From Betaproteobacteria bacterium (GTDB lineage: Bacteria; Pseudomonadota; Gammaproteobacteria; Burkholderiales; Thiobacillaceae), in NCBI GenBank assembly GCA_016873935.1, contig VGVT01000008.1:1-64000 (forward strand): DNA of 64,000 nucleotides. The letters are read 5' to 3'. Positions within the stretch are counted from its first letter, which is position 1, and each line of letters opens with the position of its first letter. The notes below the pieces were generated by a model, which searched no databases, was not told the DNA's origin, and saw nothing but the letters and a program-made list of their open reading frames with translations. Positions 20,151 to 38,746 of this stretch are shown in pieces. A program made the position numbers and the translations under genes.

Positions 20151-22109
20151 TCAGCGCAGTTTCAATTCCCCCCGTCGGAATGCGCGGAAGGCGGTCTGGT
20201 AGTAGGCCACCGCCTCGTCGCGCAAGATTGGGTCGACAGTCGTGGCGGCGGCGGTACCGTCCGCCTCGATCCGGTAAGCCTCCACGCGCCGTCTTGGCCC
20301 CAGCACGGTCAGACTATCCCCCTTGAGATAACCCAGTTCCTGGTAGTTGCTGATGAAGGCACGTGGCTTCGTGCCGGCCTGCTCGAACAGGGAGATACCG
20401 AAAAAGTGGTCGTCCCCGGGCAGGCCGAGGACATCCAGCAGGGTGGGCGGGACGTCGATCTGGCTGGCCAGGCGGTCGTCACGGCCCGGCGGCAACAGCC
20501 GCGGTGCATACAGGATGAGGGGGATGTGGTAGCCGGCCACCGGCAGTCTGGTCTTGCCCGCGGCGGAAGCGCAGTGGTCGGCGACGATGACGAACAGGGT
20601 GTCGGCAAACCAGGGCCTGCGCCTGGCCTGCTCGATGAAGCGGCCGATGGCGTAGTCGCTGTATTTCACGGCGCCTGCCCGCCCACCGGGGGATGGAATG
20701 TCGATGCGTCCGGCCGGATAGGTGAACGGCCGGTGGTTCGAGGTGGTCATGAGCTGCGCCAGGAACGGCCTGCCCGCCGCGTGCGCCCGATCCAGGCGGA
20801 CCAGGGCGTTGTCGTAGAGGAATTCATCCGCCACACCCCAGACGTTCTCGAAGCCCACCGACCCCTTGATGAAATCGGTGCGGTCGATGACCTGGTAGTC
20901 ATTGCCCGCGAAATAGGCGTTCATGTTGTCGAAGTAACCGTAGCCGCCGTAGATGAAATAGATGTCGTAGCCCTGCCGGCGCAGGATTTCCCCGACCGTC
21001 GCCAGGTGTTCGTTGCCGGGGCGGCGCACGATCGCCTGGCCCGGGATGGGCGGCGTGCCCAGGGACAGGGCCTCCAAGCCCCGCACGGTGCGGGTGCCGG
21101 TGGCGTAGATGCGGGTGAACAGCAATCCTTGATCCGCCAGCGCGTCCAGGTTGGGGGTCAGGCCCCGGCTGTCGCCGAAGGCGCCGAGGAAGCCGGCCGA
21201 CAGGCTCTCCACCGTGATCAGCACCACATTGCGGGGCGCCTTGCGGAATGGCAGGCGCCGGGCGTCGAAGGCTTCGTCTTCGTCGGCGCCCGCGCCCAGC
21301 GCCTCGTCCGCTGTTTTCCGCTCGACGCCGAGCCGGGCCAGGATGCGGGCGGCCGCGTCCTCGGGCAGGGTGGCGTAGAAGCGGTCGTAATCCAGCTCGT
21401 TGCGGCGCAGGGCGGCGGCGAAGGTCATCAGGCCGTTGCCCGCCAGTTCGTTGGCGTAGGCGTTCTCGGAGAAGCGCATGCCGTCGAGGTCGGCCAGCTG
21501 CCAGGCCGTCCACGGCAGGAGCAGGGCCAGCAATGCGGGAATCGCGCGTCGCGCCCCATGTGGCGGCAAGACATCGGTTCGCCCGATGCGGCCGCGCGCA
21601 AACCAGGTGATGCAGGCCGCCAGGGCGGCGATGCCGGTCAGCAGCCAGCCCAGGGGATAGGACTCGACGATGTTGCCGATCACCTCGTGGGTATAAATCA
21701 GGTAATCCACGGCGATGAAATTGAAGCGGCTGGAGAATTCCGCCCAGAACGTCCACTCCGCCAGCGCCAGGAACAGCCATATCGCGGTGGCCAGCCAGAA
21801 CATCAGCAGGCGGACGCGGCCGCGCCAGGGTGGCGTCCGCTCCCGCCGGATGCGCAGTGCCTCGAGCAACAGCAAAGGCGCCAGCAGCCAGGACAGCACC
21901 GCCAGGTCGAACCCCATCCCCCGCACGAAGATGCCTGGCCACAAAGCGGGCGGCACCTCGCTCGGACCCATCGCCAGGGTCAGGGCAAGACGCGTCAGGC
22001 CGGCAATGCCGAGATAGACCACCGCGAACAGGGCGGTGGGATGCGGCGATAGAAAAAAACCTGCCGGGAGTAAGCGCAAGGCGGCGACCGTTTGGGGGGA
22101 AAAAACCAA
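20151..22109 (-). CDS. LTA-synthase/EptA-superfamily membrane sulfatase-fold transferase
   Basis: A protein of up to 652 residues with about five N-terminal membrane helices (AVVYLGIAGLTRLALTLAMG, LAVLSWLLAPLLLLEAL, LLMFWLATAIWLFLALAEW) and a periplasmic alkaline-phosphatase-superfamily domain. That domain begins at NVVLITVESLSAGFLGAFG, with the usual metal and nucleophile region followed by TRIYATGTRTVRGLEAL, and ends near TLFVIVADHCASAAGK. Family members transfer phosphoglycerol or phosphoethanolamine to lipids or glycans, and the exact donor and acceptor cannot be told. The open frame starts at a TTG (22109) just 15 bases from a two-component-type box; the true start may be a little further in. 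It ends convergently with the c-di-GMP operon. Confidence 0.8.
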   Translation of the reverse strand: MVFSPQTVAALRLLPAGFFLSPHPTALFAVVYLGIAGLTRLALTLAMGPSEVPPALWPGIFVRGMGFDLAVLSWLLAPLLLLEALRIRRERTPPWRGRVRLLMFWLATAIWLFLALAEWTFWAEFSSRFNFIAVDYLIYTHEVIGNIVESYPLGWLLTGIAALAACITWFARGRIGRTDVLPPHGARRAIPALLALLLPWTAWQLADLDGMRFSENAYANELAGNGLMTFAAALRRNELDYDRFYATLPEDAAARILARLGVERKTADEALGAGADEDEAFDARRLPFRKAPRNVVLITVESLSAGFLGAFGDSRGLTPNLDALADQGLLFTRIYATGTRTVRGLEALSLGTPPIPGQAIVRRPGNEHLATVGEILRRQGYDIYFIYGGYGYFDNMNAYFAGNDYQVIDRTDFIKGSVGFENVWGVADEFLYDNALVRLDRAHAAGRPFLAQLMTTSNHRPFTYPAGRIDIPSPGGRAGAVKYSDYAIGRFIEQARRRPWFADTLFVIVADHCASAAGKTRLPVAGYHIPLILYAPRLLPPGRDDRLASQIDVPPTLLDVLGLPGDDHFFGISLFEQAGTKPRAFISNYQELGYLKGDSLTVLGPRRRVEAYRIEADGTAAATTVDPILRDEAVAYYQTAFRAFRRGELKLR

Positions 22110-22124
22110 GAATAGGCCGCGTGC

Positions 22125-22141
22125 CTTAACCCTTGCTTAAC
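22125..22141 (-). promoter_or_regulatory. PmrA/QseB-type box before the membrane transferase
   Basis: CTTAAC, five bases, CTTAAC: an exact hexamer direct repeat with 11-bp period. On the other strand it reads GTTAAG-N5-GTTAAG. It fits the CTTAA-N6-CTTAA pattern known for QseB/PmrA-type regulators and is related to the hexamers in the arrays at 31716-31754 and 35090-35128. A sequence resembling a -10 box follows toward the gene. Confidence 0.55.
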
Positions 22142-24702: not shown

Positions 24703-27700
24703 TCATTTCCCTTTAAGAATCAGGCGACGATAAAGAACCGGCAGCATCAGCAGGGTCAGGGCGGTGGAACTGAACAGGCCACCCACCACGACGATAGCCA
24801 GGGGCTTCTGGATCTCGGATCCGGGGCCGGTGGCCAGCAGCAGGGGGATGAGGCCAAAGGCGGTGATGCTGGCGGTCATGAGCACCGGCCGCAGCCGGCG
24901 CAAGGCCCCTTCCCGCACCACCTGGTCCGGCGCCATGCCCTGGCTGGCCAGCTGGTTGAAGTAGGTCACCAGCACCACGCCGTTGAGCACGGCGATGCCC
25001 AGCAGGGCGATGAAGCCCACCGAGGCCGGCACCGACATGTATTCCCCGGTGACGAACAGGGCGGCGATGCCCCCCACCAGGGCGAAGGGCACCATGGCGA
25101 TGACCAGGCCGGCCTGGCGCAGGGATTTGAAGGTGGCGAACAGCAGGGCGAAGATCAGGGCCAGGGCCACGGGCACCACCACCGCCAGGCGGGTGGCGGC
25201 CCGTTGCTGGTTCTCGAACTGGCCGCCGTAGACCACGGAATAGCCATTGGGCAGCTTCACCTCCTGGGCGACCTTCGCCATCACCTCCTCCACGAAGCCC
25301 ACCAGGTCGCGGCCGGCCACGTTGCACTGGATGGTGACATAGCGGGCCGCATTCTCACGGCTGACCACCACGGGACCTTCGGTGCGCACCAGCCTGGCCA
25401 CCTCCCGCAGGGGAATGGCGATGCCGTTTTCCGTGGGAATGCGCAGGGCCTCGAATAGGGCCGGGGATAGGCGCACGTCCTCCCCGGCGCGCAATACCAG
25501 GGGGGTGCGCTTCACGCCCTCCTGGACCGTGCCCAGCTGCAGCCCCTCCAGGTTGGCCCGCAGGAAAGCAGACACGTCGTCCATGGACAGGCCGTAACGG
25601 CCGGCCGCCAGGCGGTCCACTTCCACCTTGAAGTACTGCACGCCGTCGTTCTTCAGGCTGAACACGTCCTGGGCCCCGGTCACCTTGCCCAGCAGCGTTT
25701 CCACCGAACCCGCCAGGGTGTTGAGGGTGTTGATGTCCGTGCCGAATACCTTGATGGCCAGGTCGCCCCGGGAGCCGGTGAGCATCTCCGAAACCCGCAT
25801 GTCGATGGGCTGGGTGAAGCCGTAGGTCACGCCGGGGAAGTCGTTCATGACCGTACGGATTTCCTCCATGAGCCATTCCTTGTCCGGCTTGCGCCATTGT
25901 TCCCGGGGCTTCAGCACCAGGAAGGAGTCGGTCTGATTCAGCCCCATGGGGTCCAGGCCCAGCTCGTCGGAACCGGCCCGGGCCACCACGCCCGCCACTT
26001 CCGGCACCCGCTTGAGCAGGGCGCGCTGGACAGACTGGTCCAGGGCCAGGCTTTCCTCCAGGCTGATGGACGGCAGCTTTTCCAGCTGGATCAGCAGGTC
26101 TCCCTCGTCCAGGGTGGGCATGAAGGACTTGCCTATGAGAGGGAATAGGCCTACGGCCACCACCAGCAGGACCACGGCGGAGGCCATCACGAGCTTGAAA
26201 CGGCCCAGGGCGAAGTCCAGCAGGGGGGTATAGAGGCGCAACGCAGTGCGTACCAGCCAGGGTTCGCCATGCTGACCTTCCTTCAGCAGCCAGGAAGCGA
26301 TGACCGGCACCACCGTCAGGGCCAGCAGCATGGCCGAGCCCAGGGCGAAGACGATGGTCAGGGCCACGGGAATGAACAGCTTGCCTTCCAGGCCTTCCAG
26401 GGTGAGCAGGGGCAGGAACACGATCATGATGATGAGCACCCCGGCGGAGGTGGGTGTGGCCACCCCGCGTACCGCGCGGAAAACCCGGTGCAACTTGGAC
26501 TGCCCGCCCTGGTCATGGGCCAGGTAGGTGACCACGTTCTCCACCACCACCACCGCGCCGTCGACCAGCATGCCGATGGCGATGGCCAGTCCCCCAAGGC
26601 TCATGAGGTTGGCGGAGAGGCCGAACTGGCGCATGAGAAGGAAGGTGGCCAGGGCCGCCAGGGGAAGGCTGATGGCTACGGTCAGGGCCGCGCGCACGTT
26701 GCCCAGGAAGAGGAACAACAGCACCAGCACCAGCAGGATAGCCTCTGCCAGGGCCTTGGTCACGGTGTTGACGGCCCGTTCCACCAGGGCGGAACGGTCG
26801 TAGAAAGCCTTTACCGTCACGCCCTTGGGCAGGGTGGGCTGGATCTCCGCAAGGCGTTGCTTCACCACCTTGACCAGCGCCTGGGCGTTTGCACCGCGTA
26901 GGCCCAGAACCAGGCCTTCCACCGCCTCGCCCCGTCCGTCCTTGCTGACGCCACCATAGCGGGTGAGGCTGCCCAGGCGCACCTGGGCCACGTCGGCCAC
27001 CCGCACCGGAATGCCGCCCACGTTCTTGACCACGATGTTGGCCAGGTCGTCCAGGCTCTTCACCGCCCCTTCCACCCGCACCAGCCAGACTTCCTCGCCT
27101 TCCGTCAGGCGGCCGGCGCCGTCGTTGCGGTTGTTGGCCTGGATGGCGTCCCGCAACTGGGTCAGGGTGACGCCCCGGGCGCTCATGGCGGCGTTGTCCG
27201 GAACCACTTCAAAGGTCTTGACGTGGCCCCCCAGGGCGTTCACGTCGGCCACGCCGGGCAGGGTGCGCAGCTTGGGCCGGATCACCCAGTCCAGCAGGGC
27301 ACGGCGTTCGGCCAGGCTGAGGTGATCCCCTTCCACGGTGAACATGAACATTTCCGACAGGGGCGTGGTGATGGGGGCCAGGCCACCACTCGTGCCCTCG
27401 GGCAGATCCGCCAGCACGGCGTTGAGGCGCTCGGCTACCTGCTGGCGGGCCCAGTAGATGTCGGTGCCATCCTCGAAATCGATGGTCACGTCCGTGAGGC
27501 CGTATTTTGAGGTGGAACGCAGGATGCGCTGCTTGGGAATGCCCAGCATCTCCATCTCTATGGGGGCCGCGATGCGGGTTTCCACCTCTTCCGGTGTCAT
27601 GCCCGGGGCCTTGAGGATCAGTTTGACCTGGGTGGTGGAGACATCCGGAAAGGCGTCGATAGGCAACCCGCGCCAGGCCTGGATACCCGCCGCCAACAGC

Positions 27701-27765
27701 AGCAGGGTCAGGCCGATGACCAGAAGGCGCTGGGTCAGGGAGAATTCAGTCAGCTTGCTTAACAT
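24703..27765 (-). CDS. Heavy-metal efflux RND pump (CzcA/CusA family)
   Basis: A proton-driven inner-membrane transporter of 1020 residues with the usual two sets of membrane helices and two large periplasmic domains. N-terminal LPIDAFPDVSTTQVKLILKAPGMTPEEVE is a heavy-metal RND signature. The helix-4 motif reads AIGMLVDGAVVVVENV: the DGAxxxVEN part used to sort metal RND pumps is kept, but the leading DFG of the CzcA/CnrA types is AIG. The metal is therefore uncertain. The C-terminus PLLLATGPGSEIQKPLAIVVVGGLFSSTALTLLMLPVLY is typical. It works with the adaptor and outer-membrane proteins on either side. Confidence 0.93.
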   Translation of the reverse strand: MLSKLTEFSLTQRLLVIGLTLLLLAAGIQAWRGLPIDAFPDVSTTQVKLILKAPGMTPEEVETRIAAPIEMEMLGIPKQRILRSTSKYGLTDVTIDFEDGTDIYWARQQVAERLNAVLADLPEGTSGGLAPITTPLSEMFMFTVEGDHLSLAERRALLDWVIRPKLRTLPGVADVNALGGHVKTFEVVPDNAAMSARGVTLTQLRDAIQANNRNDGAGRLTEGEEVWLVRVEGAVKSLDDLANIVVKNVGGIPVRVADVAQVRLGSLTRYGGVSKDGRGEAVEGLVLGLRGANAQALVKVVKQRLAEIQPTLPKGVTVKAFYDRSALVERAVNTVTKALAEAILLVLVLLFLFLGNVRAALTVAISLPLAALATFLLMRQFGLSANLMSLGGLAIAIGMLVDGAVVVVENVVTYLAHDQGGQSKLHRVFRAVRGVATPTSAGVLIIMIVFLPLLTLEGLEGKLFIPVALTIVFALGSAMLLALTVVPVIASWLLKEGQHGEPWLVRTALRLYTPLLDFALGRFKLVMASAVVLLVVAVGLFPLIGKSFMPTLDEGDLLIQLEKLPSISLEESLALDQSVQRALLKRVPEVAGVVARAGSDELGLDPMGLNQTDSFLVLKPREQWRKPDKEWLMEEIRTVMNDFPGVTYGFTQPIDMRVSEMLTGSRGDLAIKVFGTDINTLNTLAGSVETLLGKVTGAQDVFSLKNDGVQYFKVEVDRLAAGRYGLSMDDVSAFLRANLEGLQLGTVQEGVKRTPLVLRAGEDVRLSPALFEALRIPTENGIAIPLREVARLVRTEGPVVVSRENAARYVTIQCNVAGRDLVGFVEEVMAKVAQEVKLPNGYSVVYGGQFENQQRAATRLAVVVPVALALIFALLFATFKSLRQAGLVIAMVPFALVGGIAALFVTGEYMSVPASVGFIALLGIAVLNGVVLVTYFNQLASQGMAPDQVVREGALRRLRPVLMTASITAFGLIPLLLATGPGSEIQKPLAIVVVGGLFSSTALTLLMLPVLYRRLILKGK

Positions 27766-27767
27766 GC

Positions 27768-28880
27768 TTATTCACCCTGCCAGGCGGCCTTCAGGGCGGC
27801 CACGCCTTCAATGGCGATCTTTTCCTCGCCACTGAAGCGACCGTCGATGGCCGCCCACTCGGCGGATTGGCTCAAGACCTTTATCTGCTCGGGCTCAAAG
27901 CCGCCGGGGCGCTCCACGAACACCCAGTTCTGGCCTGCCTGGCGCACGATAGCCTTCACCGGCACGCGCCATTGTTTGTCGCCCGCCACGCCCTCGATGC
28001 GGGCGGATACACTCTGGTTCAGGCGCAGCAGGTTGCCACGGTTGCTCACCCGGGCGCGGATGGGCACGGTCTGGGCCTCGCTCACACTCCGGCCCACGGA
28101 GATCACCTGGCCGGTGGCGTCGGTGCCGGGCACGCTGACCTGCTGTCCGGCCTTCACCCGGGCCGCCATTTCCGCCGGTGCCTGTATCTCCAGCCAGAGG
28201 GGATCGAGCCTACCCACCTTGAACAGCATGCCGGCCGTGTCCATGCGGGCGCCGATGACGGCACCCTGTTCCAGCACCACGCCACTGATGGGGCTGGCCA
28301 GGGCGATGCTGTCCGTCAGCCGTTCTCCCCGCTCCGCGGCCTTGATGGCACCCTGGCCCAGGCCCATGAGGCTCAGCCAGGCACGGCGTTCGTTGAGCAC
28401 GGCGGCGGCCTGGGCCTGGTTGGCCCGGCTGTTCTGCAGACGGGACTCGGGGATGATGCCTTCCTTGAACAGGGCTTCGTCGCGATGTACCGATTCCTCG
28501 GCCAAGCGGGCCTGGACTGCCGCCTGGGCAATGTCCTTTTGGGCACCGATGAGGCTTTCGCCCCGCAACACCGCCAGGGTCTGGCCTACCTTCACGGTAT
28601 CGCCTGCGGCCACCCTGACCTCGCTGACGATGCCCGCCATGGGGGCGGCCAGCAGCCGTTCCTGGGTGGGGGGGATGGTGACCCGGGCGGGCAGGCTCAC
28701 GGTGACGGCGCCGGCATGGGCGGCCAGGGGGACGGTGCCCACGCGCAGGGTGGTGCGCTGGGCGGGGGTCAGGGGGATGAGCTTGTCGCCGGCCAGGGCG
28801 GGCAGCGTAAACAGTGTGGCGAGGCCGGCCAGGGTGATGGCCAACGGCAGGACAAAGGGGCGGAGGGGCATGGTGGGCAT
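27768..28880 (-). CDS. Membrane fusion protein of the metal efflux system (CzcB family)
   Basis: The periplasmic adaptor linking the RND pump to the outer-membrane channel; 370 residues with a signal peptide (FVLPLAITLAGLATLFTLPALAG). It has the split biotinyl-lipoyl motif (GIVSEVRVAAGDTVKVGQTLAVLRGESL and ASPISGVVLEQGAVIGARMDTAGMLF) flanking a helical hairpin, then beta-barrel segments. No histidine-rich N-terminal metal-binding tail, as found in some CzcB proteins, is present. The stop codon lies two bases before the pump's ATG. Confidence 0.92.
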   Translation of the reverse strand: MPTMPLRPFVLPLAITLAGLATLFTLPALAGDKLIPLTPAQRTTLRVGTVPLAAHAGAVTVSLPARVTIPPTQERLLAAPMAGIVSEVRVAAGDTVKVGQTLAVLRGESLIGAQKDIAQAAVQARLAEESVHRDEALFKEGIIPESRLQNSRANQAQAAAVLNERRAWLSLMGLGQGAIKAAERGERLTDSIALASPISGVVLEQGAVIGARMDTAGMLFKVGRLDPLWLEIQAPAEMAARVKAGQQVSVPGTDATGQVISVGRSVSEAQTVPIRARVSNRGNLLRLNQSVSARIEGVAGDKQWRVPVKAIVRQAGQNWVFVERPGGFEPEQIKVLSQSAEWAAIDGRFSGEEKIAIEGVAALKAAWQGE

Positions 28881-31694: not shown

Positions 31695-31791
31695 CCACCT
31701 TCACCGTTATCCGCTCTTAAGCCTCGCCAAAGCTTCGCCTCAGATTTCCTTAAGCTTTCCGCCTCAAGCTGTGGTCGTGTTCACCCCTCAC
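31695..31791 (+). promoter_or_regulatory. Four-hexamer regulatory array in front of the redox operon (copy A)
   Basis: Hexamers CTTAAG (31716), CCAAAG (31727), CCTCAG (31738) and CTTAAG (31749) start exactly 11 bases apart, one helical turn each. The whole 97-bp element matches 35069-35165 with 10 mismatches and no gaps. CTTAA-N6-CTTAA-like spacing is known for QseB/PmrA-type regulators, and such a regulator is encoded at 36708. The last hexamer ends 60 bases before the cytochrome start codon. The remaining gap from 31539 to 31694 shows nothing recognisable. Confidence 0.75.
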
Positions 31792-31813
31792 ATTCCCTCT
31801 GAGGAGAGAATCG

Positions 31814-32293
31814 ATGAAACGCAAATTGCTGGCCGTCACCCTCTGCGCAACCATGATTGCCCCAGCCATTGCTCAAGAGGAAATCACTTACCGACAACAC
31901 ATCGAGCCCATGCTGAAGAAGTACTGCAACGAGTGCCACGCCGCACCCGATGCTCCCACCATGGCTGACTTCAAGCTGGACGAAGAAAAGTGGAAAAAGG
32001 CCAAGGTTGGCCCGCGCCTGGACACCTATGAACACCTGGTGATCCTGGTGGCCTACCCGTCCACCGGCGCGATCATGCGTCGCCTTGACGATGGCACCAG
32101 CCAATACGCCAATGGCAAGCCAGGCAACATGTACAAGTACCTGGGGAAAACCGACGAGGAACGCCAGGCCAACCTGGCCATCATGAAAGCGTGGGTAGGC
32201 GAAGGTGGCTGGAACCTGAACCGCATGAAAGCCCGCGGAGACGTGCCTGCCCTGACCAAAGAGCAGTTCGACAAGCTCGAACTCAAGTACTGA
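31814..32293 (+). CDS. Secreted monoheme cytochrome c, first gene of the redox operon
   Basis: A 159-residue periplasmic cytochrome with signal peptide MKRKLLAVTLCATMIAPAIAQ and one heme site, CNECH, shortly after (YRQHIEPMLKKYCNECHAAP). The likely axial methionine is in the region KPGNMYKYLG. The rest is charged and helical and I do not recognise a named family. GAGGAG stands seven bases before the ATG. It is co-directional with the reductase, membrane cytochrome b and octaheme cytochrome that follow with short gaps, and should carry electrons in the same chain. Confidence 0.85.
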   Translation: MKRKLLAVTLCATMIAPAIAQEEITYRQHIEPMLKKYCNECHAAPDAPTMADFKLDEEKWKKAKVGPRLDTYEHLVILVAYPSTGAIMRRLDDGTSQYANGKPGNMYKYLGKTDEERQANLAIMKAWVGEGGWNLNRMKARGDVPALTKEQFDKLELKY

Positions 32294-32320
32294 ACAAATT
32301 GCCAGGGAATCCCCTGCGTC

Positions 32321-33589
32321 ATGACCTCTCTCGGCTTGCTGCTTTGGATTGTTCTTGGCATCGTTTTGCAGGTGGGGCTGTTCCTGGGCATCAGTTTCTG
32401 GCAGCACTGGCAGACCTACAGCCGTCTCAAGCACGGACAACCCGAAGCAGACGAATCACTACCCGCAGCCAGCCTGCCAAAAGCGGAAGTGGCTGGCTGG
32501 TCGGGCTTTCGCCCTTTCAAGGTTGCCCAGCGCGTTATAGAGGACAGCGCAGGGCAAATCTGTTCTTTTTACCTGGAGCCCGAAGATAGGCAGGCACTTC
32601 CGTCATACAAGCCCGGCCAGTTCCTGACCTTCCGTTTGGACGTTCCCAAGGCCGACGGCAGCGGTACCGAGCAAATTACCCGCTGCTACTCCCTGTCGGA
32701 TGCCCCCCAGTCCGACCATTACCGTGTTTCGATCAAGCGGGTGCCGCCCCCGCCGAAGAGCGACCACCCTCCGGGGCGCTCATCGAACTTCTTCCATGAC
32801 CATATTCAGGTCGGTACGACACTTCAAATCCGCGCGCCCTCTGGACATTTCTATCTCGAACCGGGCAGCAGTCCCATCGTCCTGATCGCCGGTGGCATCG
32901 GCATTACGCCCATGCTCAGCATGCTCAACTGGTGCCAGGCGCATCAACCCGAGCGCGAAGTCTGGTTCTTCTACGGCGTGCGCAACAGCGCGGAAACCGC
33001 TTTTGCAGCACATCTGGGCGCAATCGCCGCGGTCAACCCGAACGTCCATCTGCGCCTGTGCTTCAGTAACCCTCTGCCGGAAGATCGACTGGGCCAAGAC
33101 TTCCATCACCACGGTCGCGTGGATGTGCATCTGTTCCGCATGGAATTGCCGCTGAAGCCCTACCACTACTACATCTGCGGGCCCACGCCGATGATGGAAT
33201 CCCTGGTGCCGGCACTGGACGACTGGGGCGTGCCCGATGCGCACATCCACTTTGAAGCCTTCGGTCCCGCCTCGATCAAGCGTCGCAAACCGGAGACCGC
33301 AGCTACCGGGAGTGCCATTGCAACCCCTGCAATCGACATCACGGTGACGTTCGCCAAATCGGGCAAACAGGCCCGGTGGTCACCGCAGTCGGGCAGCCTG
33401 CTGGAATTCGCAGAATCCCAGGGGATTGCCATCGATTCGGGCTGCCGCGCAGGCGGCTGCGGCACCTGCCAGACCACGATACGTTCCGGCGAAGTGTCCT
33501 ATCAGCAATCTCCGGACTTCGATCCCGAACCCGGCACCTGCCTGATGTGCGTCAGCATCCCCAAGACCCATGTGACGCTGGAGGCCTGA
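32321..33589 (+). CDS. Membrane-anchored FAD/NAD(P)H/2Fe-2S oxidoreductase
   Basis: A 422-residue reductase. A membrane helix at about 5-27 anchors it, with the rest presumably cytoplasmic. The FAD domain carries YKPGQFLTFRLD and the flavin motif RCYSLS (about 121-126). The NAD(P) domain begins at IVLIAGGIGITPMLS (about 187-201) and ends at YYICGPTPMMES. The C-terminal plant-type ferredoxin domain (about 335-422) has cluster cysteines at about 375, 380, 383 and 407/410. It resembles flavodoxin/ferredoxin reductases such as Hcr, but with the added helix. It should pass electrons from NAD(P)H to the downstream heme proteins, or the reverse. A decayed 100-bp copy lies at 22697. Confidence 0.9.
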   Translation: MTSLGLLLWIVLGIVLQVGLFLGISFWQHWQTYSRLKHGQPEADESLPAASLPKAEVAGWSGFRPFKVAQRVIEDSAGQICSFYLEPEDRQALPSYKPGQFLTFRLDVPKADGSGTEQITRCYSLSDAPQSDHYRVSIKRVPPPPKSDHPPGRSSNFFHDHIQVGTTLQIRAPSGHFYLEPGSSPIVLIAGGIGITPMLSMLNWCQAHQPEREVWFFYGVRNSAETAFAAHLGAIAAVNPNVHLRLCFSNPLPEDRLGQDFHHHGRVDVHLFRMELPLKPYHYYICGPTPMMESLVPALDDWGVPDAHIHFEAFGPASIKRRKPETAATGSAIATPAIDITVTFAKSGKQARWSPQSGSLLEFAESQGIAIDSGCRAGGCGTCQTTIRSGEVSYQQSPDFDPEPGTCLMCVSIPKTHVTLEA

Positions 33590-33590
33590 C

Positions 33591-34181
33591 ATGACATCAC
33601 CCGGCACCGCTTCCCTCTGGCGCAACCACATCCTGCCCTTCACGCTGTTGGTGACCCTGCTCGGGGTGGCGACGGTCCTCGGCGACTACCTGCTGCATCG
33701 TCTCGATATGGTCTGGGTGGGCCGCTATCTCGGCATCCCCGGCACCTTGCTGATCATCGGATCGCTGACCTATTCCCTGCGCAAGCGGAAAGTCATCGCG
33801 TCCGGGAACGTCAAATCCTGGCTCAGCATGCACGAGATCGGCACCTGGCTGGGTTCCTGGATGGTGCTGCTGCATGCCGGGGTCCATTTCAATGCCATCC
33901 TGCCCTGGCTGGCCACAATCGCCATGGGGGTCAATGTCATCAGCGGCATGGTCGGCAAGATGCTGCTGAAACGCTCGCGCGAACATGTCCAGGCCCGGCG
34001 CGAACAGTATCAGTTGCGCGGGTTGCCCAAGGCGGAGGTCGAGCAGACGGTGTTCTGGGAATCGGTAACTTTTGACGCCATGGCCAAGTGGCGCAAGGTC
34101 CACATACCGATCTTCATTGCCTTTGCCGTGCTGGCCCTGGGGCACATCGTCAGCATCTTCCTGTTCTGGGGATGGCGATGA
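33591..34181 (+). CDS. Membrane protein, probable b-type cytochrome
   Basis: A 196-residue protein with about four to five membrane helices: LPFTLLVTLLGVATVLGDYLL, YLGIPGTLLIIGSLTYSL, GTWLGSWMVLLHAGVHFNAIL, TIAMGVNVISGMVGKML and IPIFIAFAVLALGHIVSIF. Histidines lie in or next to helices (SMHEIGTW, LLHAGVHF, KVHIPIF, LGHIVSIF), a pattern expected for two bound b hemes. No named family was identified with certainty. It starts two bases after the reductase gene and its stop overlaps the next start, so it very probably connects the cytoplasmic reductase with the periplasmic cytochromes. Confidence 0.7.
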   Translation: MTSPGTASLWRNHILPFTLLVTLLGVATVLGDYLLHRLDMVWVGRYLGIPGTLLIIGSLTYSLRKRKVIASGNVKSWLSMHEIGTWLGSWMVLLHAGVHFNAILPWLATIAMGVNVISGMVGKMLLKRSREHVQARREQYQLRGLPKAEVEQTVFWESVTFDAMAKWRKVHIPIFIAFAVLALGHIVSIFLFWGWR

Positions 34182-34927
34182 ATAACATCCTCAAGATCGT
34201 TCTGGCGGTCAACCTGATCGCCCTGGCCATACTGGCCTTTGTCTATCCCCATTTGATGGTCAGCCCCGGCAAGCTGATTCCCGGCCACAGCAAGCTTGAA
34301 ACGGACTGTTTTGCCTGTCACGCACCGTTTTCAGGAGCCACGACCGAACGCTGCACGAACTGTCACAAGCCGGAAGAGATCGGCAAACTCACGACCCTTG
34401 GGCAGCCGATCCAGAAACCGCTCACCAGCACACCCTTCCATCAGAAGCTCGTCAAGCAGGAATGCCTTGCGTGCCACAGTGATCATGCCGGAGTGAAACG
34501 CTTCCGCAGCGCAGGCCGGTTCAACCATGCCTTGCTCCAGGCAGATGCCCGCAAGGAATGTCAGTCCTGCCACAAGTCACCCAAAGATTCGCTCCATCAG
34601 CAGATCACCGGGAATTGCAGCCAGTGCCATAGCCAGGAGAAATGGGCACCCGCGAACTTCGATCACGGCAAGTATTTCGTTCTGGACCGTGATCACAACG
34701 TGAAATGCGCAACTTGTCACGTGCGTAACGACTACAGCCGCTACACCTGCTACGGCTGCCATGAGCACTCCCCCGAGAAGATCCGGCGCGAGCATATCGA
34801 AGAAGGAATTCGCGACTTCAAGAACTGCGTTGAATGCCACCGAAGCGCCGATGAGCACGACATTCGGATACCGAGGCGCGGGAGAGTGCGCGAACAAGGA
34901 CAAGGCGTGGCGCGGGATGACGACTGA
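34178..34927 (+). CDS. Membrane-anchored octaheme cytochrome c (c3/c7-like)
   Basis: A 249-residue protein that starts at an ATG overlapping the previous stop (ATGA); ATG at 34172 is an alternative. An uncleaved-looking helix (ILKIVLAVNLIALAILAFVYP) is followed by eight CxxCH heme sites: CFACH, CTNCH, CLACH, CQSCH, CSQCH, CATCH, CYGCH and CVECH. Many extra histidines (for example FNHALL, FDHGKYF, EHSPEK) suit bis-His ligation. The layout is that of the multiheme cytochrome c3 family, used as electron wires between membrane redox enzymes and periplasmic or outside acceptors. It is the last gene of the operon. Confidence 0.88.
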   Translation: MNNILKIVLAVNLIALAILAFVYPHLMVSPGKLIPGHSKLETDCFACHAPFSGATTERCTNCHKPEEIGKLTTLGQPIQKPLTSTPFHQKLVKQECLACHSDHAGVKRFRSAGRFNHALLQADARKECQSCHKSPKDSLHQQITGNCSQCHSQEKWAPANFDHGKYFVLDRDHNVKCATCHVRNDYSRYTCYGCHEHSPEKIRREHIEEGIRDFKNCVECHRSADEHDIRIPRRGRVREQGQGVARDDD

Positions 34928-35068
34928 CGGCGATCAAAACACACCCAGCCTGTATTGCCATGCCGGGATTTTCATCGGCTGGCGCGAACACCTGCCATAC
35001 GCCGCCTTGGTCATGGCAAACGACACTGGATGCCATCACACGACTTGACTTGCCTGGCTCCCGGCGAG

Positions 35069-35165
35069 CCACCTTCACCGTTATTCGGTCTTAAGCCTCG
35101 CCTAAGCTTCACCTCAGATTTCCTTAAGCTTCCCGCATCAGGCTGTGGCCATGTTCACCCCACAC
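35069..35165 (+). promoter_or_regulatory. Four-hexamer regulatory array in front of the SHP/DHC operon (copy B)
   Basis: CTTAAG (35090), CCTAAG (35101), CCTCAG (35112) and CTTAAG (35123) start at exact 11-bp steps. The element matches copy A over 97 bp with 10 mismatches. It ends 12 bases before the SHP start codon. The other part of the 34928-35177 gap shows no gene. Confidence 0.75.
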
Positions 35166-35177
35166 AGGAGCATGACC

Positions 35178-35582
35178 ATGAAAGCACTGATTCCCGTATT
35201 GATTGGCCTATTCGCCGTGACGGCGCAGGCCGCCACGCCCAACGAAATTCTCGCCGGCTATCGCGCCGAGGCGGCGAAGAGCAACCCCCGTTACCAGTCA
35301 TCGGCGGAGCTCGGTGCGCAGTTGTACACGCACCCGTTCGGCGTGTCCGCCAAAATGCCGTCGTGCAGCAGTTGCCACAGTGACGACCCCGCCCGTGGCG
35401 GCAGTCACGTGGTGACCGGCAAGGCGATCCAGCCCCTGGCGCCCGCCGCCAATGCGGAGCGCTTCAGCGACCTGGCCAAGGTGGAGAAGTGGTTCCGCCG
35501 CAACTGCGGCGAAGTGCTCGGCCGAGAATGCAGCGCCGCCGAAAAGGCCGATTTCATCAGCTTCGTGATGCGGGGGCGCTGA
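35178..35582 (+). CDS. shp: SHP-type monoheme cytochrome c (DUF1924)
   Basis: A 134-residue periplasmic protein with signal peptide MKALIPVLIGLFAVTAQAA and one heme site in MPSCSSCHSDDPARGGSH. The flanking TGKAIQPLAPAANAERFSD and KVEKWFRRNCGEVLGRECS match the sphaeroides heme protein (SHP)/DUF1924 family. SHP binds oxygen through a displaceable asparagine ligand and takes electrons from a diheme cytochrome. AGGAG seven bases before 35178 favours this start over the ATG at 35172. The two extra cysteines (NCGEVLGREC) could form the family disulfide. Confidence 0.88.
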   Translation: MKALIPVLIGLFAVTAQAATPNEILAGYRAEAAKSNPRYQSSAELGAQLYTHPFGVSAKMPSCSSCHSDDPARGGSHVVTGKAIQPLAPAANAERFSDLAKVEKWFRRNCGEVLGRECSAAEKADFISFVMRGR

Positions 35583-35583
35583 G

Positions 35584-36078
35584 ATGAACGCCACGCACAT
35601 GCTCGCCCCGTTGTTTTCGATCTTCCTGGCCTGCGCGGCACAGGCCGACGACCTGCGCCTGCCCGCCGGCGCGCCGCCGGCCTTCCAGAGCGAATGCGGC
35701 GCCTGCCACCTGGCCTTCCCGCCGCGACTGCTGGCGGCCGAAGACTGGCGCCGGGTCATGGCCGGCCTCGACCGGCACTATGGCGACAACGCCAGTCTCG
35801 ACGCGCCGACGCGCCGCGCCATCGAGGCGTATCTGGTCGAAAACGCCGGCAAACCGAGAAAGCTCGGCCCCGGCGGGACGGCGGCGCCGGGCGAAGCACC
35901 GCGTTTGACCGCCACCGCCTGGTTCAAGCGCAAGCACCACGAGGTGCCGCCGGCCTCCTGGCGACATGCCGAAGTGCGCAGCCCGGCCAACTGCGCCGCC
36001 TGTCACAAACAGGCGGCAAGCGGCAGTTACCGCGAGCGCGAGATCGTCATGCCCGGCGGCCGTCGCTGGCAAGACTGA
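35584..36078 (+). CDS. dhc: Diheme cytochrome c (DHC family)
   Basis: A 164-residue secreted cytochrome with a signal peptide (LAPLFSIFLACAAQA) and two heme sites: CGACHLAFPPRLL in the N-terminal half and CAACHKQAASGSY in the C-terminal half. PPAFQSECGACHLAFPP, WRRVMAGLDRHYGDNASLD and WFKRKHHEVPPASW are DHC family features. DHC is the known electron donor to SHP and is normally encoded with it and with a b-type cytochrome, as here. It starts one base after the shp stop codon. Confidence 0.9.
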   Translation: MNATHMLAPLFSIFLACAAQADDLRLPAGAPPAFQSECGACHLAFPPRLLAAEDWRRVMAGLDRHYGDNASLDAPTRRAIEAYLVENAGKPRKLGPGGTAAPGEAPRLTATAWFKRKHHEVPPASWRHAEVRSPANCAACHKQAASGSYREREIVMPGGRRWQD

Positions 36079-36088
36079 GGAGAGGACG

Positions 36089-36694
36089 ATGAACAGGATT
36101 CTGGTCTGGGGCTGGCCGGTGCGCATCGGCCATTGGCTGCTGGCGGGCGCCTTCGTCCTGGCCTGGCTCACCGGCGACAGCGAAACCTGGCGCCTGGTGC
36201 ATGTCTGGGCCGGCGGCACCGTCGTCGGCGTGGTGTTGTTCCGCCTGCTCTGGGGCCTGGTGGGAACGCGCTACGCGCGCTTCACCAGCTTCGTGCGCGG
36301 CCCCGGCGCGGTGAAGGCGTATCTGCTCGGGTTGTTCACGCAGCCGCGCGTCGAACAGCACGGCCACAACCCCGCCGGCGGCTGGGCCATCGTCGCGCTG
36401 CTGGCGCTGGGCCTGCTCACCGGCCTCAGCGGCTGGCTGACCTATCAGGAAATCAGCGGGGAGTGGTTCGAGGAACTGCACGAAACCCTGGCCTCGACCA
36501 TGCTGGCGGTGGTCCTCCTCCATCTCGTCGGCGTGCTCACCGGCAGTCTGGCGCATGGCGAAAACCTGGTGCGCGCCATGTTCACCGGCATGAAGCGCGG
36601 CGATGCCGATGCCGCCATCGCCGGCGCGCGGCCGCTCGCCATACCGCTATTGCTTGCCTGCGCGGCGACCTGCGCCTGGTGGCTGGCCCGGTAG
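36089..36694 (+). CDS. Cytochrome b561-type membrane protein
   Basis: A 201-residue inner-membrane diheme cytochrome b from MNRILVWGWPVRIGHWLLAG, with four helices and histidines in RIGHWLL, LVHVWAGG, ELHETLAS and LLHLVGVL, the expected heme-ligand pattern. It would take electrons from the quinol pool and give them to DHC. GGAGAGGACG upstream supplies a ribosome-binding site. An in-frame extension upstream overlaps dhc and is not expected to be used. Confidence 0.9.
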   Translation: MNRILVWGWPVRIGHWLLAGAFVLAWLTGDSETWRLVHVWAGGTVVGVVLFRLLWGLVGTRYARFTSFVRGPGAVKAYLLGLFTQPRVEQHGHNPAGGWAIVALLALGLLTGLSGWLTYQEISGEWFEELHETLASTMLAVVLLHLVGVLTGSLAHGENLVRAMFTGMKRGDADAAIAGARPLAIPLLLACAATCAWWLAR

Positions 36695-36707: not shown

Positions 36708-37367
36708 ATGCGCATCCTGCTCGTCGAAGACGATCCGCACCTGGGCGACGCGCTCATGGTCGGCCTGCGCCAGCACGGCCATGCCGTGGACTGGCTGCGC
36801 GACGGCGTAGCCGCCGATCTCGCGCTGAAGAGCGAACCTTTCGATCTGCTGGTGCTGGATCTCGGTTTGCCGCGCCTCGATGGCGTCGAGGTGCTGCGGC
36901 GGCTGCGCGGGCGCGGCCAGGTCCTGCCGGTGCTGATCCTCACCGCGCGCGACGCCACCGGCGACAAGGTAGCCGGGCTGGATGCCGGCGCCGACGATTA
37001 TCTGGTCAAGCCCATCGATCTCGACGAACTGGTGGCGCGCGCCCGCGCCCTGACCCGGCGCGCGGCGGGTCATGCCAGTCCGCGCCTGAGTGTCGGCGAC
37101 CTGTCGATCGATCCCGCCGCGCGCCAGGCGACGCTGCGCGGCGCACCGGTCGAATTGACCACGCGCGAGTTTTCCCTGCTGCTGACGCTGGCGGAAAACG
37201 TCGGCCGCGTTCTGACCCGCGCCCAGCTCGAAGCCTCGCTCTATGGCTGGCGCGACGAACCGGACAGCAATGCGCTGGAAGTGCACATCCACAATCTGCG
37301 CAAGAAGCTGGGCAGCGAGCGCATCAAGACCCTGCGCGGCATCGGCTACGGCATGGCGAAACCATGA
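36708..37367 (+). CDS. QseB/PmrA-type response regulator
   Basis: A 219-residue OmpR-family regulator from MRILLVEDDPHLGDALM. The receiver has LVLDLGLPRLDG and VKPIDLDELVARARAL. The output domain has LTTREFSLLLTLAENVGRVLTRAQLE and ends with the characteristic QseB/PmrA stretch GWRDEPDSNALEVHIHNLRKK. Regulators of this group bind CTTAA-N6-CTTAA-like direct repeats. Two such arrays lie upstream within 5 kb (31716, 35090) and one box at 22125, which makes it the likely regulator of the redox genes. Its stop overlaps the kinase start. Confidence 0.92.
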   Translation: MRILLVEDDPHLGDALMVGLRQHGHAVDWLRDGVAADLALKSEPFDLLVLDLGLPRLDGVEVLRRLRGRGQVLPVLILTARDATGDKVAGLDAGADDYLVKPIDLDELVARARALTRRAAGHASPRLSVGDLSIDPAARQATLRGAPVELTTREFSLLLTLAENVGRVLTRAQLEASLYGWRDEPDSNALEVHIHNLRKKLGSERIKTLRGIGYGMAKP

Positions 37368-38746
37368 CCACGCGCTGGTTTTCCCTGCGCCGGCGCCTGT
37401 TCGCGCTGCTGCTGGGCGGCGTCAGCGCCGGCTGGCTGGTCACCATGGTGTTCTCCTATGTCGACGCCCACCACGAAATCGACGAGTTGTTCGACGCGCA
37501 ACTGGCGCAGGCCGCCCAGACCCTGCTCGCGCTCGCCGGCGAATATGACGATGACGACGATGTCGTCGAACTGACGGGGGATGGCCACCCCTACCAGAAG
37601 AAACTGGTGTTCCAGCTCTGGGATGACGAGGGCCGCCTGCTGTTGCGCTCACGCGACGCGCCGACCCAGCGGCTGACCGATGCGCTGGGTTACTCGGAAC
37701 GGGTGGATGCCCGGGGGCAACGCTGGCTGTACTACAGCCAGTGGGATGCCCAGCGGCAATTGCGCGTCGAGGTCGGAGAGAACCACGCGGTGCGCGAGGA
37801 GCTTTCGCGCTACATCGCCATGCGCCTGCTGGCCCCGGCCGTGCTCGGCCTGCCGCTGCTCGGTCTGTGGGTGTGGTTCGCCATCCGCCGCGGTCTGGCG
37901 CCCATCGCCACGGTCACCGATCAGGTCAGCCGGCGCGCGCCGGAACACCTCGATGCGCTGACACCGGAGCGCGCGCCGGAAGAAATCCGTCCCCTGGTCG
38001 AGGCGCTCAACGCGCTGTTCGCGCGCGTCGACCGCGCCTTCGACCACGAGCGCCGCTTCACCGCCGACGCCGCCCATGAGTTGCGCACGCCGCTGGCGGC
38101 GTTGGCCGCGCAGGCGCAGGTGGCGCTGCGGGCGGATGACGCGCGGCAACGCGAGCAGGCCCTGGCGCGGATCGTCGCCGGCAGCCAGCGCGCCGGCCGG
38201 CTGGTCGGGCAGTTGCTGACCCTGGCGCGGCTGGACCCGGCAAGCCGGCCCGCGCTGCAGGCGGTTGCGCTCGATGTCCTCGCCACCGAGGCATGCGCGG
38301 AGCTCGGCCGGATCGCCCTGGAGCGGCATATCAGCCTGGAACTGGAGGCGCCCGAAGCCGTGGTGGTGGACGCCAACGCCGACCTGCTGCGCGTCCTGCT
38401 GCGCAACCTGATCGACAACGCCCTGCGCTACACGCCGGAGGGCGGCAGGGTCGAAGTGGCGGTGAGCATGACGGATGCGGGCGCCAGCCTGGTGGTCGGC
38501 GATGACGGACCCGGCATCCCGGAAGGCGAACGTGATGCCGCCCTGCTGCGCTTCCATCGCCTGGCGGGGCAGGAAGTCGAAGGCAGCGGTCTCGGCCTGT
38601 CCATCGTCGCGCGCATCGCCGAGTTGCACGCGGCGCGGCTGACCTTGGGCGACGGCCCCGCCGGCAAGGGATTGACGGTACAGGTGCTGTTTCCCGCGCC
38701 GGCCACGCGCCAAGGCGATCCCTCAGCCGATTGCGAATACCCGTAA
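37364..38746 (+). CDS. QseC-type sensor histidine kinase
   Basis: A 460-residue kinase from [20 protein letters not shown]. It has a membrane helix at about 10-30, a periplasmic domain of about 120 residues with an acidic run ([10 protein letters not shown]), a second helix ([20 protein letters not shown]), and phospho-acceptor [47 protein letters not shown] and [16 protein letters not shown] form the ATPase site. It is the classic QseC layout. The acidic stretch might bind metal ions, as in PmrB, but this is speculation. Confidence 0.92.

Follow-up and report, generated by a model that had tools for sequence, protein, structure and literature searches.

Twin CTTAAG-box promoters as candidate targets of one PmrA/QseB-like regulator linking an SHP operon with an octaheme cytochrome operon

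The stretch of DNA analysed here (the window: positions 1 to 64,000 of contig VGVT01000008.1, assembly GCA_016873935.1, from a betaproteobacterium of the Thiobacillaceae) carries two neighbouring operons, each preceded by a 97-bp block with four direct-repeat hexamers. Operon A codes for a PccH-type cytochrome, an FAD/NAD/2Fe-2S reductase (FNR), a membrane protein (Mem) and an octaheme cytochrome, and operon B for SHP (sphaeroides heme protein), the diheme cytochrome c DHC, a cytochrome b, a response regulator and a sensor kinase. We propose that both blocks are probably class-II-type promoters of a single two-component regulon, whose regulator would be the PmrA/QseB-like protein encoded at 36708 in operon B. 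An earlier note on this DNA had reported that the blocks match at 87 of 97 positions without gaps and that each holds hexamers at +0, +11, +22 and +33; direct comparison reproduced the identity exactly, and all four hexamers were located in both A and B. A blastn search aligned the blocks with 90% identity over 98 bp and found only A and B, without a third copy, in the genome from which they come (2.70 Mb, 121 contigs), and the identity falls off sharply outside the 97 bp. The four-hexamer pattern, with up to three mismatches allowed, has two matches in the window and the same two in the whole genome, compared with none in 100 shuffles of the window and none for the reversed pattern. Both arrays contain two CTTAAG-like hexamers in direct repeat with a 5-bp spacer, as expected of a PmrA/QseB-type operator. 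Moreover, each block includes a -10 element, which the earlier note had missed, and therefore constitutes a complete promoter.

The position of the -10 element was analysed in 75 non-redundant SHP and octaheme promoters, aligned on the last hexamer after the hexamers had been picked blind to the -10 region. The element, YAnnnT, emerges at a single offset, +16 counted from the start of the last hexamer (a 10-bp gap): its A and T are present there in 43 of 48 SHP and 25 of 26 octaheme promoters, as opposed to at most five at any other listed offset. Such a fixed, short distance between box and -10 element, shared here by both types of operon, characterizes class-II-type promoters, and the geometry is activator-like. 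Among the 18 SHP promoters with four hexamers, the hexamer columns carry 1.61 bits and the spacer columns 0.30 bits per column; the conservation thus resides in the hexamers, the reverse of what the earlier note had named as telling against its reading.

In PhoB-activated promoters, tandem pho boxes with 11-bp direct repeats stand in place of the -35 element, and at PhoB- and PmrA-activated promoters alike the half-sites lie at an exact distance from the -10 element without a separate -35 consensus. The promoters described here resemble those of PhoB in the 11-bp direct repeats that replace -35 and in the presence of more than one box per promoter, but differ in hexamer sequence and in the regulator. 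Since a repressor, too, could work from the -35 region that the box overlaps, one might suppose that the regulator represses rather than activates; however, the distance from the end of the half-sites to the -10 element is exact, and no -35 consensus apart from them is visible, which makes repression improbable. According to the activation model that we prefer, the phosphorylated regulator would bind the CTTAAG-type half-sites, spaced by 11 bp, as head-to-tail dimers. The proximal box would span about -39 to -23, with the last hexamer ending 10 bp before the -10 hexamer, and would thereby replace the -35 element, while the second box (about -61 to -45) could take a second dimer. Promoter B would then drive SHP, DHC and cytochrome b together with the regulator's own genes, and promoter A would drive PccH, FNR, Mem and the octaheme cytochrome. 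In other genomes, the FNR-Mem-octaheme genes have a single box of their own or follow the SHP box in one run.

The earlier note had suggested looking in related genomes for the array before SHP/DHC and octaheme operons in the company of a QseBC-like pair, and it does recur there. In SHP neighbourhoods taken from the family and order of the window, the full four-hexamer array precedes SHP in 18 promoters and a single pair in many more, mostly 40-90 bp before the start codon; four hexamers are not required, since the majority of the other SHP and octaheme promoters contain a single box of two. With a score threshold of at least 13, SHP is preceded by the pair box in 43 of the 67 loci that encode, within 3 kb, a regulator sharing at least 53% identity with 36708, in 2 of the 14 whose regulator is more distant, and in 9 of the 49 with none within 3 kb (control windows 0.6%; Fisher test, 8e-7). 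Four of these last nine boxed loci (L147, L158, L105 and L079) have a regulator of the first kind slightly farther off. The composite of box and -10 element (score at least 15), sought over the whole fetched SHP locus, is present in 66 of 72 loci with a 36708-like regulator versus 8 of 45 that lack one. A count of exact hexamer repeats that uses no motif model also gives a period-11 peak before SHP (27 of the 63 loci with a regulator alongside). In four loci in which regulator and SHP are divergent (L121, L110, L128 and L188), composite matches occur also on the strand towards the regulator, which suggests that one array may serve both divergent promoters.

For the octaheme operons, GTDB genomes were scanned with an alignment of Mem, which yielded 419 relatives; the best 80 loci, mostly from Betaproteobacteria, were kept. 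The box stands before FNR in 37 of 76 octaheme operons of other genomes (null 0.6%), and in most of these loci it is the best pair of the entire locus. The composite promoter lies within 300 bp in 41 of the 76 at the same threshold of 15, and exact repeats again peak at period 11 (11 of 64). Period-10 signals in L077 and L078 were rejected as AT-rich repeats away from the octaheme promoters. The octaheme loci, 13 kb long on average, also hold SHP in 23 of the 80 cases, a 36708-like regulator in 12, and either of them in 28. The twin layout of the window, with a box at both operons, is repeated in L304, L317 and L280, where the promoter sequence is unrelated to that of the window. In L314 all the genes form a single run in the order SHP, DHC, cytochrome b, response regulator, histidine kinase, FNR, Mem, octaheme, and in L318 the run lacks the two regulatory genes; both carry a single box ahead of SHP and lack one ahead of FNR. 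The order is the same in L294, but its SHP start lies too close to the contig end for the box to be judged. In L273 the regulator gene and FNR diverge, and a box lies close to the FNR start. The co-occurrence of SHP in 49 of 50 octaheme genomes, as compared with 82 of 300 in a sample of the order, we set aside as weak evidence, since those 50 genomes are from the closest relatives, taxa in which the base rate can be high; in the family of the window SHP is present in 95 of 117 genomes. In the order sample, which is unbiased, just four of nine strong Mem matches come with SHP.

The protein encoded at 36708 has the receiver and Trans_reg_C domains of the PmrA/QseB family, and the closest solved chains are those of PmrA/BasR (8jo2 and 4s04). 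Its alignment with PmrA is gapless, with N188, V192, H193, H195, N196, R198 and R210 kept and S in place of T187. Those PmrA residues have been reported as DNA contacts by crystal structure or docking (PmrA-DNA crystal structure: PMC4660055). The QseB/PmrA pattern formerly ascribed to the hexamers thus extends to the box, its spacing and the DNA-contact residues of the regulator. The curated NCBIfam cut-offs are not reached either by 36708 (239 against 330 for PmrA, 236 against 345 for QseB) or by the kinase (285 against 475 for QseC); judged by their sequences, both proteins are family-like rather than PmrA, QseB or QseC proper. The PmrA box of the pbgP promoter is CTTAAT-n5-CCTAAG (PMC3973317). 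The arrays resemble the enteric PmrA box in the hexamers, the 5-bp spacer, the head-to-tail half-sites and the base-contacting residues of the regulator, but differ in that hexamers 2 and 3 are degenerate (CCAAAG or CCTAAG, and CCTCAG), two boxes are adjacent, the target genes encode cytochromes and the sensor is QseC-like. Another class of SHP-linked regulators has the recognition helix VF[IV][AG]R, and the SHP promoters beside it have mirrored hexamers, CTGAAC...GTTCAG. Because hexamer and recognition helix change together, the neighbouring regulator is favoured as the binder, and the pairing of the two in both classes amounts to a specificity test in waiting. Mirror-symmetric sets such as CTGAAC-n5-ATGAAC-n5-GTTCAG-n5-GTTCAG are seen upstream of SHP in L127, L130, L091, L092, L206 and others.

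It must be noted that several points weigh against our proposal. The box is generic for PmrA/QseB-like regulators, of which the genome encodes at least two more, on contigs C67 (56%) and C58 (54%), and three further composite promoters of the genome precede apparently unrelated genes. The motif weights were our own choice, guided by the window and by the PmrA box as published; near-duplicates were removed, yet the related sequences are still partly dependent, and the co-occurrence figures compare closest relatives with an order sample of unmatched taxa. About half of the other octaheme operons have no recognisable box near FNR, and in L265-L272 octaheme operons with a CTTAAG box adjoin SHP genes with a regulator of the other class. 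Finally, the box is only weakly associated with the presence, at another place in the genome, of a 36708-like regulator linked to SHP (about 12 of 19 versus 3 of 10 in a hand tally). One could thus envisage that C67 or C58 uses the boxes, alone or by cross-talk: their recognition helices are similar (N188 and VYVHH in C67, VYVHR in C58), behind the C67 gene come a kinase gene and an open reading frame (ORF) that reads like an LTA-synthase/sulfatase, and the additional composite promoters lie before a sulfatase-family gene, a methyltransferase-like gene and a third gene. However, the location of the box tracks the SHP-linked regulator, and SHP loci with VF[IV][AG]R regulators carry GTTCAG-type hexamers instead. 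We regard the use of the boxes by a paralogue as rather unlikely and infer that they are targets of 36708.

The first of these additional promoters lies at 22109-22141 of the window, on the minus strand (GTTAAG-n5-GTTAAG with TATTCT), before the sulfatase-family gene 20151-22109 (PF00884), and is also present in the nearest relative of the window, G311; this gene is a possible further target of a PmrA/QseB-like regulator. The other two are exact composites at C24:31757, before the methyltransferase-like ORF, and at C83:2943, before an ORF followed by an AMP-ligase-like ORF.

An OmpR/EnvZ-like pair (29504/30222) sits just upstream of operon A, on the same strand, and it could be this pair that controls the octaheme operon, the array being left over from the copying of a promoter. 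In L292 and L297, from gammaproteobacterial assemblies, a pair like it (48-51% and 40%) lies directly upstream of the octaheme operon. However, the recognition helix of 29504 is OmpR-like, with R188 and VQIGR versus N188 and VHIHN of PmrA; L292 and L297 still have CTTAAG boxes with the fixed -10 element, and 36708-like regulators are encoded near SHP in their genomes; and a pair of this kind adjoins merely 3 of the 80 octaheme loci. We therefore give little credence to this alternative. The pair also adjoins putative RND-type efflux genes (window 24703-28880, minus strand), of which it may be the regulator. The view of the earlier note that one two-component system stands behind both operons gains support from the recurrence of the box, the fixed -10 element, the gene linkage and the contact residues.

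With regard to the origin of the twin promoters, A and its counterpart in G311, as well as B and its counterpart, are 96% alike, whereas A and B are 90% alike; the duplication therefore predates the split from G311. Likeness to both copies is 76-81% for the SHP promoters of G291 and G317, which come from the genus or family sample. On these comparisons, duplication of an SHP promoter appears to explain better than independent constraint why the twin promoters are nearly identical even in their spacers, and the SHP copy is probably the original, because related SHP operons without octaheme genes carry the array. Promoter A would then be a copy that came to lie ahead of PccH in a common ancestor of this bacterium and G311. 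Gene conversion may offer another explanation. The claim that the genes behind the two promoters are unrelated stands as far as homology is concerned: domain searches found none between operons A and B, and shared gene homology was rejected as the source of the promoter likeness. Both operons nevertheless encode c-type and membrane electron carriers. The 90% identity over 97 bp, spacers included, of copies that are older than the G311 split yet still very alike could be taken as the trace of a recent DNA duplication devoid of regulatory meaning, but across families the hexamers are conserved and the spacers are not, and independent octaheme promoters with unrelated flanks show the box and the fixed -10 element, so that such an explanation is highly improbable.

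The association of SHP with a QseC-type sensor is already known. Meyer et al. described in 2010 a cluster of SHP, DHC and cytochrome b with the sensor 'SK2' and a response regulator, and proposed that the two regulate SHP (PMC2909971). Operon B has the same gene set, with SHP, DHC, cytochrome b, regulator and QseC-like kinase in one run, as in SK2-type operons; the paper, however, gives no operator, and 'octaheme' and 'multiheme' are absent from its text. We found no mention of the operator or of an octaheme-SHP link in the literature searched. The present analysis would thus supply an operator for a regulator class published without one, and the shared, precisely defined promoter, which ties the two operons together, predicts transcription starts to a few bases. 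Electrons of the SHP branch are believed to pass from quinol via cytochrome b and DHC to SHP, for which NO dioxygenase activity has been reported (PMC2909971). Based on linkage and shared control, we infer that both operons serve one electron-transfer pathway, in which the reductase-Mem-octaheme branch would feed or drain the SHP system; the shared promoter would thereby give an uncharacterised electron-transfer system a likely partner. More tentatively, SHP-DHC-cytochrome b (from quinol) and FNR-Mem-octaheme (from NAD(P)H) might be the two entry branches of a single undescribed system of periplasmic electron transfer that occurs mainly in Betaproteobacteria and serves O2 or NO chemistry at SHP, with the QseBC-like sensor reading the state of the system.

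Table 1. Promoter elements and genes of operons A and B (window coordinates)
Feature	Position	Strand	Basis or remark
Promoter A, block before PccH/octaheme operon	31695..31791	+	87/97 identical to 35069-35165
Array A, CTTAAG-n5-CCAAAG-n5-CCTCAG-n5-CTTAAG	31716..31754	+	four half-sites, 11-bp steps, two PmrA/QseB-type boxes
Array A, hexamer starts	CTTAAG 31716, CCAAAG 31727, CCTCAG 31738, CTTAAG 31749	+	
-10 element A, CAAGCT	31765..31770	+	10 bp past last hexamer
PccH-type c-type cytochrome, gene 1 of operon A	31814..32293	+	Pfam PF22297, 200 bits, full length
FAD/NAD/2Fe-2S reductase (FNR), operon A	32321..33589	+	PF00970, PF00175, PF00111
Membrane protein (Mem), operon A	33591..34181	+	conserved histidines
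Membrane-anchored octaheme c-type cytochrome, operon A	34172..34927	+	8 CxxCH; PF02085/PF14537/PF14522, alignment
Promoter B, block before SHP/DHC operon	35069..35165	+	blastn and identity to promoter A
Array B, CTTAAG-n5-CCTAAG-n5-CCTCAG-n5-CTTAAG	35090..35128	+	pattern search
Array B, hexamer starts	CTTAAG 35090, CCTAAG 35101, CCTCAG 35112, CTTAAG 35123	+	
-10 element B, CAGGCT	35139..35144	+	position fixed across 75 promoters
SHP (DUF1924), operon B	35178..35582	+	PF09086
DHC, diheme cytochrome c, operon B	35584..36078	+	PF09626
b561-type cytochrome b, operon B	36089..36694	+	PF01292
PmrA/QseB-like response regulator, proposed activator of both operons	36708..37367	+	PF00072+PF00486
QseC-like sensor kinase, operon B	37364..38746	+	best NCBIfam model QseC, 285 bits, cut-off 475

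Mem has no match in Pfam or NCBIfam, and its AlphaFold model is helical and of low confidence; with a mean predicted local distance difference test score of 60, it was set aside as a basis for a fold search. A second SHP gene of the genome (C84:3089-3361, L073) is accompanied by DHC, with no 36708-like regulator beside it and no box. The first gene of operon A fits the model of Geobacter PccH over its full length, but PccH is found in just 2 of the 80 octaheme loci, one of them that of the window's nearest relative.

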